DNA of 40,301 bases from an uncultured Pelagibacteraceae bacterium (GTDB lineage Bacteria; Pseudomonadota; Alphaproteobacteria; Pelagibacterales; Pelagibacteraceae), in NCBI GenBank assembly GCA_902597425.1, contig CACJXT010000005.1, positions 1 to 40,301 on the forward strand. Direction: 5' to 3'. The position numbers and the translations under genes are program-made. This document shows, piece by piece, positions 4,670 to 14,428 of the stretch. The notes under the pieces are model-generated. The model worked only from the letters and a program-made list of their open reading frames with translations, had not been told where the DNA came from and ran no database searches. Positions within the stretch are counted from its first letter, which is position 1. Each line of letters opens with the position of its first letter.

Positions 4670-5416
4670 ATGAATAAATCATCATTTTTTATAGTTGGCA
4701 AACACCCAGTTGTAGAAGCATTAAAAAATCCAAAAAGAAAGGTTTTGCGTGTTTTTCTGACTGAGGAAAGTAAAAAAAATATTCATAGAAAAAACCAAAA
4801 AAAAAATCTTTTAGAAGGTATTAAAGTTCATTTTAAAACAAAAAAGGAGTTAGACAAATATACTGCTAATGAACAGATAAAACATCAAGGTTGTGTTGCT
4901 GAAATTGAACATCTTGATGATCTTGTCCTTAAAGACTTTATAAAAAAAAAAAATAATTTAACTTTTGCCTGCTTAGATGAAGTAACTGATCCAAGGAACA
5001 TAGGATCATTAATTAGAAGTATGGCTTCATTTGATATTGATGGTTTAATTATAAAAGAAAGACATTTTCCTAAGGAAAGTAAGTTAATGTACAAATCTGC
5101 AAGTGGTTGCATAGAACATGTAAACATTTTTAAAGTATCCAATATTAATTCAACATTAAAAAATCTTAGAGAAAGTAATTTTTGGGTTTATGGATTTGAT
5201 GCTGGAGGAAAAAAAAATTTTACAGAAATTGAATGGAAAGGAAATAATATTCTTCTATTTGGGTCAGAGGGTTTTGGAATGAAAAAACATACTATGAAAT
5301 ACACTGACTTTTTCGTTCGTATAGATATAAATAAAAATATAGAAAGTTTAAATATTTCAAATAGCGCTGCTATTGTTTTTCACCATTTAAACTATATAAA
5401 AAAATGTGTTGATTAG
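4670..5416 (+). CDS. rlmB: 23S rRNA (guanosine-2'-O-)-methyltransferase, SpoU/TrmH family (RlmB-like)
   Basis: VGKHPVVEALKN, LDEVTDPRNIGSLIRS, LLFGSEGFGM, LNISNSAAIVFH: SpoU family motifs. Confidence 0.88.
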   Translation: MNKSSFFIVGKHPVVEALKNPKRKVLRVFLTEESKKNIHRKNQKKNLLEGIKVHFKTKKELDKYTANEQIKHQGCVAEIEHLDDLVLKDFIKKKNNLTFACLDEVTDPRNIGSLIRSMASFDIDGLIIKERHFPKESKLMYKSASGCIEHVNIFKVSNINSTLKNLRESNFWVYGFDAGGKKNFTEIEWKGNNILLFGSEGFGMKKHTMKYTDFFVRIDINKNIESLNISNSAAIVFHHLNYIKKCVD

Positions 5417-5445: not shown

Positions 5446-5521
5446 GCCCTTGTAGCTCAGCTGGTAGAGCAATTGATTTGTAATCAATAGGTCCGCGGTT
5501 CGAATCCGTGCGGGGGCACCA
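5446..5521 (+). tRNA. tRNA-Thr (TGT anticodon), CCA end encoded
   Basis: GCCCTTGTAGCTCAGCTGGTAGAGCAATTGATTTGTAATCAATAGGTCCGCGGTTCGAATCCGTGCGGGGGCACCA; anticodon loop TTTGTAA. Confidence 0.96.
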
Positions 5522-6297: not shown

Positions 6298-6383
6298 TGG
6301 TGCCCTCGGCCAGACTCGAACTGGCACTCCCAAAAGGGCAAGGATTTTAAGTCCTTTGTGTCTACCAATTTCACCACGAGGGC
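6298..6383 (-). tRNA. tRNA-Leu (TAA anticodon), CCA end encoded
   Basis: Reverse complement GCCCTCGTGGTGAAATTGGTAGACACAAAGGACTTAAAATCCTTGCCCTTTTGGGAGTGCCAGTTCGAGTCTGGCCGAGGGCACCA; anticodon loop CTTAAAA. Confidence 0.96.
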
Positions 6384-6444
6384 ATGAGTTATTTTCATGA
6401 GTATTTATGCTAATATTTATAATTGAACAAGTTTAATAATCAAA

Positions 6445-6563
6445 TTAAAATCTGCTTCTTAAAGAAATATTTGCACCAATACTTTTTACATATTGATTTG
6501 TATCTTTAGCATCCAATGTAAAAGAGATTTGACTATTTTCAGATAACCTCTTTTCGTATCCAA
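6445..6563 (-). pseudogene. C-terminal fragment of an outer-membrane beta-barrel protein (remnant)
   Basis: Reverse-strand translation NIGYEKRLSENSQISFTLDAKDTNQYVKSIGANISLRSRF* shows alternating-residue strands ending in a C-terminal Phe; no start codon or upstream domain is present. Confidence 0.55.
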
Positions 6564-6589
6564 TGTTTGCCAATTTTACTACGAGAACA
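6564..6589 (-). repeat. Degenerate copy of the 5' end of tRNA-Leu (original at 6359-6384)
   Basis: Ungapped 26-nt alignment: tgtctaccaatttcaccacgagggca vs tgtttgccaattttactacgagaaca; 20/26 identical, all six differences are transitions. Confidence 0.55.
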
Positions 6590-6983
6590 TTAATGCTTTT
6601 ATTAAATACTTTTTGTTTAATTCACAATCTTTATATCCACACTTAACAACATTTAAATATTTTTTAGTTGGATAAGCAAATTTAGTTTTTTTAACCATAG
6701 TGTATGTCATTACTTTTTTTCCATAGTAAATGAAGTAATATTTTTTATATAAAATTGGATAATCCTCATAAACATCAAGTTTTTTTTCATCGCTCTTAGA
6801 AATCTCATATAAAGCACCTGGAACTATTGAATTTTTTTTTTTCTCAATATCTGCTGCTCTATATTTGCTTCTAAATGTTAGTCTAAAATCTTTTAATTTT
6901 ATTTTCTTTATGAATTTACTATCCTTGCATCTTCTTTTCATTTGAAAATGATTAAGATTACTTCCATAAGCAAAATAAAGCAT
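6579..6983 (-). CDS. Gamma-glutamylcyclotransferase/AIG2-like protein
   Basis: N-terminal MLYFAYGSNLN motif typical of the GGCT/AIG2 fold; PGALYEIS...LDVYEDYP. Confidence 0.75.
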   Translation of the reverse strand: MLYFAYGSNLNHFQMKRRCKDSKFIKKIKLKDFRLTFRSKYRAADIEKKKNSIVPGALYEISKSDEKKLDVYEDYPILYKKYYFIYYGKKVMTYTMVKKTKFAYPTKKYLNVVKCGYKDCELNKKYLIKALMFS

Positions 6984-6984
6984 T

Positions 6985-7737
6985 TTAATTATCTTTAATT
7001 ATTTCAATTTTCTTTTGTGAAACAAATTCCATTATTTTAGAATTGCAATCATCAATTTTAGTTTGGTTCTCTGATCTTACAACAATAGAAACTCCTAATT
7101 TTCCCGCTCTAAAAAATGGATAACTTCCTATTTCAACATCTTTATTACTATTTTGAACAGATGTTAATGATTTAGCAATTTCGCTTTCAACAGTTCTTAA
7201 ATTAATTGTATGGCTAATTATTGGTTTACCTCCAGAAATTTCATTTTTTAATCCACCCAACATTGATTTTAAAATTGATGGAACACCAGGTAGACAAAAT
7301 ACATTTTCAACAATAAATCCTGGTGCCCCACTTGTTGGATTTAATATTAATTTAGCATTGGCGGGTGTCCAAGCCATCTTCTGTCTTCCTTCATTAAATT
7401 CACCTGGTTTATAATAAGATTCTAAAATTTTAAAAGCTTCTTTATTAACCTCATAATTTAAATTAAAGGCTTTAGATACTGAAGCTGCTGTAATATCATC
7501 ATGAGTTGGTCCAATTCCACCAGTGGTAAATACATAAGTGTTTTTTCCTCTTACTTCGTTAATTGTTTTAACTATCACTTCTTCTATATCAGGTATTACT
7601 CTAACCTCTTGAACTTTCACCCCTAATAAATTTAACCATAAAGATATTAAGCTAGTGTTTGTATCTTGTGTTCTTCCTGATAAAATTTCATTACCGATTA
7701 TGATTATTGCGGCATTAACTTGTATTTTTTTTTCCAT
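6985..7737 (-). CDS. Molybdopterin-binding/CinA N-terminal domain protein (COG1058-like)
   Basis: AAIIIIGNEILSGRTQDTN, TTGGIGPTHDDIT, LPGVPSILKSML motifs; no C-terminal PncC domain. Confidence 0.85.
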   Translation of the reverse strand: MEKKIQVNAAIIIIGNEILSGRTQDTNTSLISLWLNLLGVKVQEVRVIPDIEEVIVKTINEVRGKNTYVFTTGGIGPTHDDITAASVSKAFNLNYEVNKEAFKILESYYKPGEFNEGRQKMAWTPANAKLILNPTSGAPGFIVENVFCLPGVPSILKSMLGGLKNEISGGKPIISHTINLRTVESEIAKSLTSVQNSNKDVEIGSYPFFRAGKLGVSIVVRSENQTKIDDCNSKIMEFVSQKKIEIIKDN

Positions 7738-7758
7738 TAAGAAATATATTATTTAAAT

Positions 7759-8460
7759 ATGAAATTTACCAAGAGATTAATAAAAGGCAAACTTATCAAA
7801 AGATATAAAAGGTTTTTTGTTGATATCAATCTAAATAAAGAAGTAATTACTGCACATTGTCCTAATACTGGATCTATGATGGGTTTATTAAACATAAATA
7901 ACGATGTCTGGATATCAAAAAATGATGATCCTAAAAGAAAATTAAAATTCACTTTAGAAATAATTAAAGTTAAAAAAAATTTAATAGGCGTTAATACTCA
8001 CTTTGCAAACAAAATTGTCTACCATGGTTTGATAAACAATTTAATTAAAGAATTAAATAATAATCAAGATATAAAACGAGAAGTTTTTTTTAATAAAGAA
8101 ACAAGATTTGATTTTTTGCTCAAAAAAAATAATCAAAAAATTTTTGTTGAGGTTAAAAATGTAACTTTATTTAGAAAGGATAAAATTAGCGAATTTCCTG
8201 ATGCAATCACTTCTAGAGGTTCAAAACATTTAAAAACCCTTATTGATGCCACAAAAAAAGGTTATAAATCTTACATAATATTTTTGGTTCAAATACAAGG
8301 AATGAAATATTTTAAAATAGCAAAAGATATAGATAAGGAATATTATCAAAATTATTTACTGGCAAAAAAAGCTGGTGTTAAATTTTTAGCTTATAGATGT
8401 AATATTGACCCTGCTAAAGAAATTAAAATTGAAGAAAAATTAAAAATAATTGATGCATAA
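7759..8460 (+). CDS. sfsA: Sugar fermentation stimulation protein A homolog
   Basis: RFFVDINLNKEVITAHCPNTGSMMGLL and FPDAITSRGSKHLKTL are SfsA signatures. Confidence 0.92.
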   Translation: MKFTKRLIKGKLIKRYKRFFVDINLNKEVITAHCPNTGSMMGLLNINNDVWISKNDDPKRKLKFTLEIIKVKKNLIGVNTHFANKIVYHGLINNLIKELNNNQDIKREVFFNKETRFDFLLKKNNQKIFVEVKNVTLFRKDKISEFPDAITSRGSKHLKTLIDATKKGYKSYIIFLVQIQGMKYFKIAKDIDKEYYQNYLLAKKAGVKFLAYRCNIDPAKEIKIEEKLKIIDA

Positions 8461-9226
8461 TTATTCAGAAAAATTTGAAAAGATGAAAATAGCTGGAAAT
8501 TTAGCAGCCAGAACATTAGACATGCTAACCGACTATATTAAACCTGGTATTACAACTGATTACATAGATAAGCTTGGATACGAATTTATAAAAGATAATG
8601 GTGGACATTCGGCTCCTCTTTTTTATCGAGGTTTTAAAAAATCTTTATGTACATCATTAAATCATGTTGTATGCCATGGAATTCCTTCAGATAGAATTTT
8701 AGAAGAAGGTGAATCTTTAAATGTTGATGTAACGGCAATAGTTAATGAACATTACGGCGACACTAGTAGAATGTTTTGTGTTGGTAAAGCTTCTATCAAG
8801 GCAAACAATTTAATTAACGCTACTTATGACTCTATGATGAAGGCAATAAAAATTTTAAGACCTGGCTTAAAACTTGGTGATATTGGTCATGAGATTCAAG
8901 CCTATGTTGAAGAAAAAGGCTTTTCAGTTGTAAAAGATTTCTGTGGACATGGCATAGGAACAATTTTTCACGAAGAACCAAATATACTTCATTATGGAAA
9001 AAAAAATACTGGAATAGAACTAGTTCCTGGAATGACTTTCACAATTGAACCTATGATTAATGCAGGAAAGTATGAAACAAAAGTTCTACAAGATGGTTGG
9101 ACTGCAGTAACAAAAGATAAATCTTTATCGGCACAATTTGAACATACAGTGGGAATTACGGAAAATAGTTATGAAATTTTTACAGAATCTGCTAAAGGTT
9201 ATACTAAACCTCCATTTAATAATTAA
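8453..9226 (+). CDS. map: Methionine aminopeptidase, type I
   Basis: CTSLNHVVCHGIPSDR, NVDVTAIVNEHYGDTSRMF, GHGIGTIFHEEPN; start placed at ATG 8453, since the ORF-track start at 8450 is a TTG. Confidence 0.96.
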   Translation: MHNYSEKFEKMKIAGNLAARTLDMLTDYIKPGITTDYIDKLGYEFIKDNGGHSAPLFYRGFKKSLCTSLNHVVCHGIPSDRILEEGESLNVDVTAIVNEHYGDTSRMFCVGKASIKANNLINATYDSMMKAIKILRPGLKLGDIGHEIQAYVEEKGFSVVKDFCGHGIGTIFHEEPNILHYGKKNTGIELVPGMTFTIEPMINAGKYETKVLQDGWTAVTKDKSLSAQFEHTVGITENSYEIFTESAKGYTKPPFNN

Positions 9227-10518
9227 TGATAACAAGGTACTCTAGAAAAGAACTCACTAATATTTGGTCAGAAGAAAATAAATACAAAATTTGGCTTGAT
9301 ATTGAAATTGCAGCAGCCCAAGCAATGGAAAAATACAAAATCATTCCTAAAGGTGTTTCTTCAATTGTTAAGAAAAAAGGGAAAATTAATGTTAAAAGAA
9401 TCCATTCTATCGAGTCTAAAGTTAAACATGATGTCATTGCATTTTTGACCTCAATAACAGAAAAAGCAGGAATAAAAGCTAGATATCTTCATCAAGGAAT
9501 GACCTCTTCTGATGTCTTGGATACAAGTTTTAATCTGCAATTAATCCAATCAGGAAAAATACTACTAAAAGATATTGATCAGATATTAAAAATTTTAAAA
9601 AAACAGTCTAAAAAATATAAATTAACTCCTTGTATAGGAAGAAGTCATGGTATTCATGCTGAACCTTTAACTTTTGGATTAAAATTAGCTTCATTCTATG
9701 AAGAGTTTAAAAGAAACAAAAAAAGACTTTTAAGTGCAATTGAGGAGGTTTCAACTTGTGCAATTTCAGGTGCTGTTGGTACTTTTGCAAATATTAGCCC
9801 AAATGTTGAAAAGCATGTTGCAAAAAAACTTGGACTTAAAATTGAACCAATCTCTACACAAATAATACCAAGAGACAGACATGCCTTTTATTTTTCTGTT
9901 CTAGGTATTATAGCAGGATCTGTAGAAAGAGTTGCAACAGAAATAAGACATTTACAAAGAACTGAAGTTTATGAATTACAAGAATTCTTTTCAAAAAAAC
10001 AAAAAGGTTCGTCTGCAATGCCACATAAAAAAAATCCTATATTGAGCGAAAATCTTACAGGATTAGCAAGAATGGTTAGAAGCTACGTAATTCCTGCATT
10101 AGAAAATATAGCTTTATGGCATGAAAGAGATATTTCTCATTCAAGTGTTGAAAGAAACATTGGACCTGATGCAAATATAACTTTAGATTTTGCTCTTGTA
10201 AGGTTATCCAATATTTTAAAAAATATGATTGTCTACCCTAAAAAAATGGCAACTAATCTTAACATAACAAAAGGTATTATTTTTTCTCAAGAATTAATGC
10301 TGGAACTCACAAAAACTAATTTAAGCAGGGAAAAATCATATAGATTAGTCCAAACACATGCAAAAAAATGCATTACACAAAATTTAAATCTATTTGAAGT
10401 TGTAAAAAAAGATAAAAATATAACTGATAGAATTCCTTTAAATAAACTTAATAAAATATTTAATTATTCATCACACTTTAAGAATGTTAATTTAATTTTT
10501 AATAGAGTTTTTAAATAA
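9226..10518 (+). CDS. purB: Adenylosuccinate lyase
   Basis: [37 protein letters not shown] signature. Confidence 0.97.
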
Positions 10519-11303
10519 TGAAAAAAGGTAAAAAACTATACGAAGGTAAAGCTAAAATTCTTTATGCGGCTTCAGAAAAAGGAACAGCCATACAACACTT
10601 TAAAGATGACGCCACTGCTTTCAATAATCAAAAAAAATCAAATATTGAAGGAAAAGGCATTTTAAATAATAGAATTTCTGAACATATATTATCAAGTCTA
10701 AACCAAATAGGTATTGAAACTCATTTAATTAAAAGGATCAACATGAGAGAACAGTTGGTTAAATTAGTTGAAATTATTCCAATTGAATTTGTTGTAAGAA
10801 ATATTGCCACTGGTTCGCTTACTAAAAGACTAGGTATAGAAGACGGAACTATATTAGAAAAACCACTAATAGAATTTTGTTATAAAAATGATGACTTAAA
10901 CGATCCGTTGGTTGCAAGAGAGCATATTTATTCTTTTGGTTGGGCAACCGCTATAGAATTAGATTGGATAACCAAACAATGCTTTAGAATAAATGATTTC
11001 ATGCAAGGTATGTTCAAAGCTGTTGGAATTAAATTGGTAGATTTTAAACTTGAGTTTGGAAGACTAAATAAAGATGAAAAAACAAAAATTCTACTAGCAG
11101 ATGAAATTAGTCCTGATACATGTAGATTATGGGATGCAACTAGTGACAAGAAACTAGATAAAGATAGATTTAGAAAAGACTTAGGAAATCTACTTGAGGC
11201 ATATCAAGAAGTTGCGAGAAGATTGGATATTCTGCATGAGCAAAATAATGTAAGACCAATTAAATTTCCTAAACCTATAGCGGTAAAAATCAAAAAAAAA
11301 TAA
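10518..11303 (+). CDS. purC: SAICAR synthetase
   Basis: [41 protein letters not shown]. Confidence 0.97.
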
Positions 11304-11546
11304 ATGAAAATTAAAATCATAGTAACACTTAAAAAAAGTGTTTTAGATCCTCAAGGTACAGTTATTCAACAAGCGTTAAATGGAATGGGTTTTAACGATG
11401 TTAATGAAGTAAGACAGGGGAAATTTTTTGAGATTAATATAGATGAAAAAGATCAAAGTAAAGCAGAAGAAAAAGCTGATGAAATGTGTAAAAAACTCTT
11501 AGCAAATCTAGTTATTGAAGATTACAAAATTATTGGATCACAATAA
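11304..11546 (+). CDS. purS: FGAM synthase, PurS subunit
   Basis: 80-aa protein KIIVTLKKSVLDPQGTVIQQALNGMGF between purC and purQ. Confidence 0.94.
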   Translation: MKIKIIVTLKKSVLDPQGTVIQQALNGMGFNDVNEVRQGKFFEINIDEKDQSKAEEKADEMCKKLLANLVIEDYKIIGSQ

Positions 11547-11552
11547 TAAATA

Positions 11553-12236
11553 ATGAATTCATCAGTAATAACTTTTCCAGGATCAAATTGTGATAGAGAC
11601 ATGGATGTTGCTCTAAAAAAATTTGGATTTAAAAATAAAATGGTTTGGCACAATGATGTTGAATTGCCTAAAAGTGAACTTGTCGTTCTACCAGGAGGTT
11701 TTTCTTATGGTGATTATTTAAGATGCGGATCTATGGCTTCGAAATCTAGAATAATGAAATCAGTAATTAATTTTGCAAAATCAGGAGGTAAAATTATGGG
11801 TATCTGTAATGGGTTTCAAATTTTAGTAGAAACCGGACTACTTCCAGGTGTTTTGTTAAGAAATAAATATTTAGAATTCATTTGTAAAAATGTTTTTGTG
11901 AAAGTTAATAATAAAAATAATCCATATTTTAAAGATATTAAAAAAGATACACTCGAACTTCACATTGCTCATAATGAAGGAAATTATTTTTGTTCAAAAG
12001 AACAAATTAAAGAAATTAATAATAACAATCAAATAGCTCTATATTACTCTGATAAAGATGGAAAGATTAATGAAAATACTAATCCTAATGGGTCTATTAA
12101 AAATATTGCAGGTGTTTTTAATAAAGAAAAAAATGTATTAGGGATGATGCCCCACCCTGAACGCATGATTGATCCAGATCTTTCAGGTGAAGACGGTTCT
12201 ATTTTTTTTAAAAACTTAATTAATAATTTAAAATAA
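11553..12236 (+). CDS. purQ: FGAM synthase, glutamine amidotransferase subunit PurQ
   Basis: [46 protein letters not shown]. Confidence 0.97.
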
Positions 12237-14428
12237 TGATAGTTAATGAACAAATTGCGATTGATCATGGTTTAAAAAAAGATGAGTATAAAAAAATTTG
12301 TGATTTATTAAAAAGAATTCCAAATATAACTGAACTTGGAATTTTTTCTGCAATGTGGAACGAACATTGTTCATATAAATCGTCAAGGCTTCATCTTAAA
12401 AATTTACCCACTAAAGGAAAAAATGTGATCCAAGGCCCAGGTGAAAATGCTGGCGTTGTTGACATTGGAGATGATGATGCAATTGTTTTTAAAATAGAAA
12501 GTCACAATCACCCATCATTTATTGAGCCTTATCAAGGAGCGGCAACAGGTGTTGGTGGAATTATGAGGGATGTTTTTACGATGGGTGCTAGACCTATTGC
12601 AAATCTTAACTCAATTCATTTTGGATCACCACAACATAAAAAAACAAAGAATTTACTTAGAGGCGTTGTGCATGGAATAGGTGGATATGGAAACTGTATG
12701 GGTGTTCCAACAATTGCAGGACAAACAAGTTTCGATGAGTCTTATAATGGTAATATTTTAGTAAATGCTATGACCTTAGGATTGGTTAAAAAAAATAAAA
12801 TTTTTTATTCTAAAGCAGCTGGTTTAGAAAAACCTGTTATCTACGTAGGGTCTAAAACTGGTAGAGATGGAATTCACGGAGCCAGCATGGCCTCAGCAAT
12901 ATTTGATGACAAAATAGAAGAAAAAAAACCCACAGTACAAGTGGGTGATCCTTTCACTGAAAAACTTTTGTTAGAAGCATGCTTAGAATTAATGGCCGGT
13001 GATTCTATTATTGCAATTCAAGATATGGGTGCTGCAGGACTTACATCTTCCAGTATAGAAATGGCATCAAAAGGAAAATTAGGTATAGAAATTAACTTAA
13101 ACAAAGTACCTTGTAGAGAAACTAATATGACACCTTATGAAATTATGCTTTCTGAGAGTCAAGAAAGAATGCTTATAATATTAGAAAATGGAAAAGAAAA
13201 TTTAGCAAAAAAAATTTTTGATAAATGGAATTTAGATTTTGCTGTAATTGGTAAAACAACTAATAATAAAAAAATTGAACTTTTTTTTGATAAAAAAAAG
13301 GTTGCAGATATACCTATAGATACTTTAGTTGAAAACTCACCAATGTATGATCGTAAATGGAAGAAATGTAAATTACCAAAAAAAATTAAAATTAAAAAAG
13401 AAGATTTTAAAAATTTAAAAATTATTAATATTTTAAATAAAATTTTATCTAGTCCAAATATATGTAGTAAAGAATGGATTTGGCAACAATATGATCATAC
13501 AGTTATGGGTGATACTATTCAAAAACCCGGTGGTGACTCTGGAGTTGTTAGAGTTCATGGTACTAATAAGGCAGTGGCTGCTTCAGTTGACTCTTCTGCT
13601 GTTTATTGCTGGGCTCATCCTTTAAGTGGAGGAAAACAAATTGTTTGTGAAAGTTGGAGAAACTTAATTGCTGTTGGAGCAAAACCAATTGCTATAACAA
13701 ACTGTCTAAACTTTGGTAGCCCAGAAAATGAAGAAAATATGGGTGAGTTTGTTGAGTGTGTTCAGGGATTAGGTGAAGCTAGTTCATATTTAGATTTTCC
13801 TGTTGTTTCTGGAAATGTATCTTTTTACAACCAAACAAAAAATATTGGAATTAAACCTACACCTGCAATTGGCGGTGTTGGCTTAATAAAAGATTATAAA
13901 AAAATGGTCACTATGAGTTTAAAACAAAGTGATAATATTCTTTTAGTCGTTGGAAAAACTGAAGGAGATTTAAATCAAAGTTTATTTTTAAGGGATATTT
14001 TAAATGAAAAAAATGGTCCTCCACCAGAAATCAATTTATTTAATGAAAAAAATAATGGTGAAACAATATTGAAACTTATTGATAAAAAATTAATAAAGTC
14101 TTCTCATGATGTCTCTTTGGGTGGCATTATTATTGCTCTCTCCAAAATGTGTATTAAAGGAAAAAAGGGTGCAACACTTAAGAAGCCTAACTATTTAATG
14201 AACGAATTTGAATACCTTTTTAGTGAAGACCAAGGAAGATATATAATCGAGATTGAAAAAATTAACTTAAAAAATGTAACTGAAATTCTTGAAAAAAACT
14301 CAGTTCATTATGATGAACTTGGAACTGTCAATGAAAATGAGCTAATTATTAATAATAAATCAAAAGTAACAATTGACGAATTAATTAAATCCCATACAAA
14401 TTGGTTAAATAACTATATGAGTAAATAA
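12236..14428 (+). CDS. purL: FGAM synthase, PurL subunit
   Basis: 730 aa; [47 protein letters not shown]. Confidence 0.98.

Follow-up and report, generated by a model that had tools for sequence, protein, structure and literature searches.

The window, the whole stretch of 40,301 nucleotides of DNA analysed here, contains an intact tRNA-Leu(TAA) gene at 6298–6383 on the minus strand, as identified by ARAGORN. Upstream of it, and on the same strand, are a 63-bp block immediately before the gene (6384–6446), a 3' remnant of about 42 codons from an outer-membrane-type protein (OMP) gene (6445–6573), and a ggct-like gene of the GGACT/AIG2 family (6579–6983; 134 aa; Pfam PF06094, E=1.1e-9). The first 26 bases of the tRNA recur at 6589–6564, on the same strand and on the upstream side of the tRNA, 205 bp from its start. 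This match is ungapped and covers 20 of 26 positions; all six mismatches are transitions and five of these are towards A/T. A sequence-only reading had described the repeat as a decayed copy of the tRNA-Leu 5' end and a possible scar of an integrated element. Its coordinates, orientation, match count and spacing were all correct on recounting, and the alignment bears out the pattern of substitutions. Is this fragment the trace of a mobile element, or could it have arisen in some other way?

Read 5' to 3' on the minus strand, the first 20 bases of the fragment differ from the tRNA by four C→T or G→A changes, and the last six by one T→C and one G→A. The secure part of the fossil is 6570–6589, with 16 of 20 positions matching and only C→T or G→A differences. 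The last 6 bp or so of the proposed 26-mer, 6564–6569, are probably coding sequence of the OMP fragment rather than fossil. Dinucleotide-preserving shuffling of the 300 bp downstream (3000 trials) did not reproduce a match of this quality: the tRNA 5' 26-mer never scored above 18, and a score of 20 was reached once when any 26-mer of tRNA-Leu was allowed.

Comparison with relatives places the tRNA-Leu 5' end at the very position of the fossil. Three relatives (G365, G221 and G314) have an empty site, in which ggct runs directly into a complete tRNA-Leu; the final codons of its tail, ALMPSW*, are supplied by the start of the tRNA (ATG CCC TCG TGG TGA). Two others (G359 and G375) have an occupied site, with the identical ggct/tRNA junction followed by tRNA nt 1–39 and then by other DNA, which in G375 opens with an element left end bearing AGTC repeats. 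At the ggct junction there is a decayed tRNA half in G138 and a truncated one, with about 20 nt kept, in G250. Empty, occupied and decayed states, and the scar in the window, can thus all be read in these genome sequences. A wider search of the genus brought up genomes in which the match runs to the end of the 26-mer. The earlier reading had named an unrelated intact coding gene at 6564–6589 in relatives as evidence against a scar, and none appeared; its other refuting condition, that such matches would be common among shuffled sequences, did not materialise either.

The states form a graded series when the tRNA match is scored, out of 27, at one set position following the conserved A-L codons of ggct. 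It is 27 in five relatives, 23 in G250, 22 in G138 and 21 in the window, then 15 in G240, 14 in G372 and 13 in G103. These last three are the closest sampled relatives and group with the window in the ggct tree, which is approximate, being that of a single short gene. Other genomes score 4–11, in or near the chance range. A search by junction pattern gave mostly cassette right ends and few ggct junctions, and no clean count of the states. The overlapping ggct/tRNA state is common to diverged genomes in one part of the tree. Most members of the genus have other genes behind ggct and no recognisable relic, so this state may not be ancestral for the genus as a whole. At an outgroup locus (L033), tRNA-Leu has other neighbours and there is no ggct–tRNA neighbourhood.

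Insertion of an element upstream of the 3' half of the tRNA should have left element sequence in front of the gene, and the 63-bp block agrees with this. It is identical at 61 of 63 positions to the right ends of elements elsewhere in SAR11, and dozens of genomes have a block of this type at the right end of a cassette. Against the empty-site relatives, where ggct coding sequence stands instead, it matches at 26–29 of 63 positions, and against G012 at 29 of 63. The block is probably the tRNA-Leu promoter, with a candidate -35 element TTGTTC (6430–6425) and a candidate -10 element TAAATA (6407–6402) at a spacing of 17. The corresponding motifs in the circular elements discussed below are TTGAGT-17-TAAATA (L067) and TTGAAT-17-TAAATA (L069), in blocks otherwise unlike that of the window. 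Gene debris and a likely tRNA promoter had been noted in this interval before; the debris is present as the OMP remnant, and the promoter is not native but came with the element. The 5' half of the tRNA would also be element-derived, and its 3' half original. A regenerated tRNA with a displaced tRNA fragment nearby is the textbook sign of an integrated island (Islander, PMC4383910). The window has both parts, the tRNA being regenerated with element sequence and the displaced fragment lying on the far side at 6564–6589.

It is very probable that the window holds the emptied integration site of a mobile element, with the tRNA-Leu 5' end left behind as a fossil. The notion of a scar has held up, and the fossil is a decayed tRNA 5' end as proposed, but it is the original chromosomal end and not a stray copy. 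We speak of a scar rather than an island because the island is gone and the window has no integrase gene in the ggct–tRNA-Leu interval. It has no arm repeats left either.

The proposed history begins with a site at which tRNA-Leu(TAA) would have overlapped the 3' end of the ggct-like gene. Into this site would have inserted an element of the tyrosine-recombinase type, with a promoter block of its own and an att site comprised of the first ~39 nt of tRNA-Leu, as far as the anticodon loop. The tRNA would have been restored from the element promoter, the element 5' half and the chromosomal 3' half, while the original 5' end stayed at ggct. Later deletions would have taken the left end and the cargo, leaving the fossil, 42 OMP codons and the element promoter block. 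The fossil, of 20–26 bp, would then have drifted, and the new TAG would end ggct one codon early (MFS* for MPSW*); in the window the residues M-F-S and the stop are encoded by the fossil. The deletion step is a reconstruction, because the ggct–OMP–tRNA arrangement of the window was found in no other genome. The exact deletions, and which element inserted, are likewise inferred.

The OMP remnant is 74% identical to the C-terminal end of a 573-aa protein that is intact in G028. This homology begins near 6573–6574, and the last 11 nt of the 26-mer align with OMP coding sequence. The remnant is probably what is left of the cargo, or else a passenger of the emptying deletion. That it was once cargo is unproven, since the homologs found in relatives, including that in G028, sit elsewhere and not at the ggct/tRNA-Leu site. 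No unit carrying OMP was found among those examined in relatives.

What kind of element uses this site? In most of the relatives examined there are islands between ggct and tRNA-Leu, and many of these have 1–3 extra copies of the promoter block plus tRNA nt 1–39, separating units that are often in tandem. Cargo units parted by partial-tRNA repeats, as in a cassette array, are found in the relatives; the window has only the scar. The 39-mer was matched in 110 of 151 genus genomes, many of which are incomplete, and 48 of these 110 have 2–4 copies of the 5' half. The 101 units that are delimited at each end have a median size of 2.2 kb and range from 267 bp, an empty unit in G101, to 8.8 kb. No ORF of at least 60 aa runs against the tRNA direction in 81 of the 101, and integrase genes of this family were found in two, those of G144 and L067. 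In most units the repeats stop at one tRNA position, near nt 39 in the anticodon loop. Behind 17 of 19 half-copies there are at least two AGTC motifs within 70 nt, spaced at about 10 bp; these 19 were found without use of the motif, and loci L101–L220 were left out because their search pattern contained AGTC. The repeats resemble arm-type integrase sites and may function as such. An exact-pattern scan of GTDB genomes found at least 120 stretches, and the titles among the matches listed were all Pelagibacteraceae, Pelagibacterales or Ca. Pelagibacter.

Some elements at the site encode their own mobility functions. In G144 an element of 8.8 kb has an integrase of 551 aa directly behind the left half-tRNA and a primase of 766 aa, and is autonomous. 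Integrase is present in L224 and L067, both elements of relatives. The latter, from IMG/VR, has a 99-bp terminal repeat which indicates a circle of ~7.7 kb, and encodes integrase, primase and a RusA-like protein; no capsid genes were recognised in it. The integrases were identified, from sequence, by PHROGs and Pfam matches and R/R-H-Y motifs, and the primases by PHROGs. Among 121 genomes of the genus, a single one was found to have the L067 integrase. L067, L068, L069 and L070 form a satellite-like family with integrase and a primase with DUF5906; they are filed in IMG/VR as viruses and have no recognised capsid genes. The Charybdis elements (PMC12324425) were considered as the identity of the circular element and dropped, as their size, gene content and host differ.

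Units that lack an integrase have also moved. One is 99.5% identical over 2354 bp between two genomes whose nadK-side flanks are 78% identical, and for two further unit pairs the identities of unit and flanks are 95 vs 86% and 93 vs 79%. These differences indicate recent movement between species. An integrase acting in trans would account for the integrase-less units, and homologous recombination may also be a route of unit transfer. Three SAR11 genomes (L156:3256, L162:913 and L220:3975) share a 2654-bp cassette at 98–99% identity; its two ORFs are of 241 and 480 aa.

Even if the window is an emptied integration site, the original insertion might have been a T7-like pelagiphage and not a satellite or cassette. 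Two viral contigs from IMG/VR (L221 and L222) with a T7-like RNA polymerase carry the tRNA-Leu 5' half, L221 with the same upstream block, and a pelagiphage with tRNA-Leu 5' sequence has been reported (PMC8163748). However, no phage genes are left in the window, its upstream block is of the type shared by cassette right ends, and that of L221 may be the host side of a prophage; we consider a phage origin unlikely. L221 and L222 start beside the half-tRNA and their arms differ from the AGTC type, so that the tRNA-Leu site may serve two or more integrase families.

A second alternative dispenses with site-specific integration, the repeat arising by local duplication or homologous exchange of the ggct–tRNA region. 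Blocks of ~100 bp are common to all units and could recombine by homology, and the single-copy state of the window could have been imported whole. Such events would not be expected to end the repeats at the same tRNA position in most units, nor to produce arm-like repeats or integrase-bearing and circular forms with the same ends, and we think this very improbable. At first the 26-mer was taken for a fortuitous join of the native ggct end, a few spacer bases and the OMP start, with no tRNA ancestry: ggct stops within 2–4 codons of the A-L pair in nearly all relatives, and the OMP alignment reaches into the 26-mer. This reading was overturned by the relatives that have tRNA-Leu itself at that very position, with ggct in the same frame, and by the graded decay series; it is at odds with the shuffles and now has hardly any probability.

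SAR11 genomes are streamlined and have few recognised prophages, yet their gene content is highly variable. Beyond the probable emptied integration site in the window, we tentatively suggest, as a possibility, that tRNA-Leu hosts an integron-like cassette system in SAR11. Integrase-less units would cross species by means of a satellite or phage integrase; insertion would place the cargo behind the displaced promoter and half-tRNA, and the fresh promoter and 5' half of the unit would keep tRNA-Leu(UAA) working. A hotspot of small units that can be exchanged, whose ends are recognisable and for which there is a candidate integrase, would offer a concrete route for SAR11 gene exchange. Such insertions also leave lasting traces, as the fossil shows, here extending to the last residues of the adjacent ggct product. 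In annotating tRNA genes it should be borne in mind that a 39-nt half-gene close to a real tRNA can be what remains of an att site.

Islands at tRNAs with a displaced fragment are already known, and the arrays described here, in which each cassette brings a promoter and a 5' half, are a variant of these. As in islands of the Islander type (PMC4383910), the element regenerates the target tRNA and the displaced fragment marks the far end; unlike those, the displaced fragment here is the 5' end and the element resupplies the promoter, and the window keeps the decayed fragment only. The att sites of T7-like cyanophages are 39 bp long and match the first half of a tRNA-Leu gene (PMC8776855), the same tRNA family, half and length as here, but they are phages, infect cyanobacteria and do not form arrays of small cargo units. 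Closer in host type are the additive flexible islands, or tRNA cassettes, of Ca. Actinomarinales (PMC7771536) and the tRNA-Lys repeats of Ca. Methylopumilus (PMC10872708), also streamlined aquatic bacteria with cassettes at tRNAs marked by partial-tRNA direct repeats. In Methylopumilus the final 20 bp of tRNA-Lys are repeated, whereas here the repeat is the promoter plus nt 1–39 of tRNA-Leu, and the system has arm-like repeats and an identified integrase-bearing relative. The tycheposons of Prochlorococcus, going by the second-hand description in PMC10872708, are likewise tRNA-bordered cargo carriers with a tyrosine recombinase, but are reported at 4–200 kb, whereas most units here are 1–4 kb and without a recombinase. 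No paper describing tRNA-Leu cassette arrays in SAR11 was found, which is weak evidence as few subscription papers were covered.

Other integrases occur in these genomes away from tRNA-Leu. One contig (L225, G063:C72) has at ~6400–13600 a second satellite-like element with an integrase of 451 aa and a primase of 768 aa. It lies between nadK and an rlmB-like gene; the equivalent site in the window is tRNA-Thr(TGT) at 5446–5521, which may be another integration site. A different Phage_integrase-family gene is present at 5250–6590 of L227 (G080:C7), with neighbouring small ORFs, on a contig without a tRNA-Leu half; it may belong to a further element.
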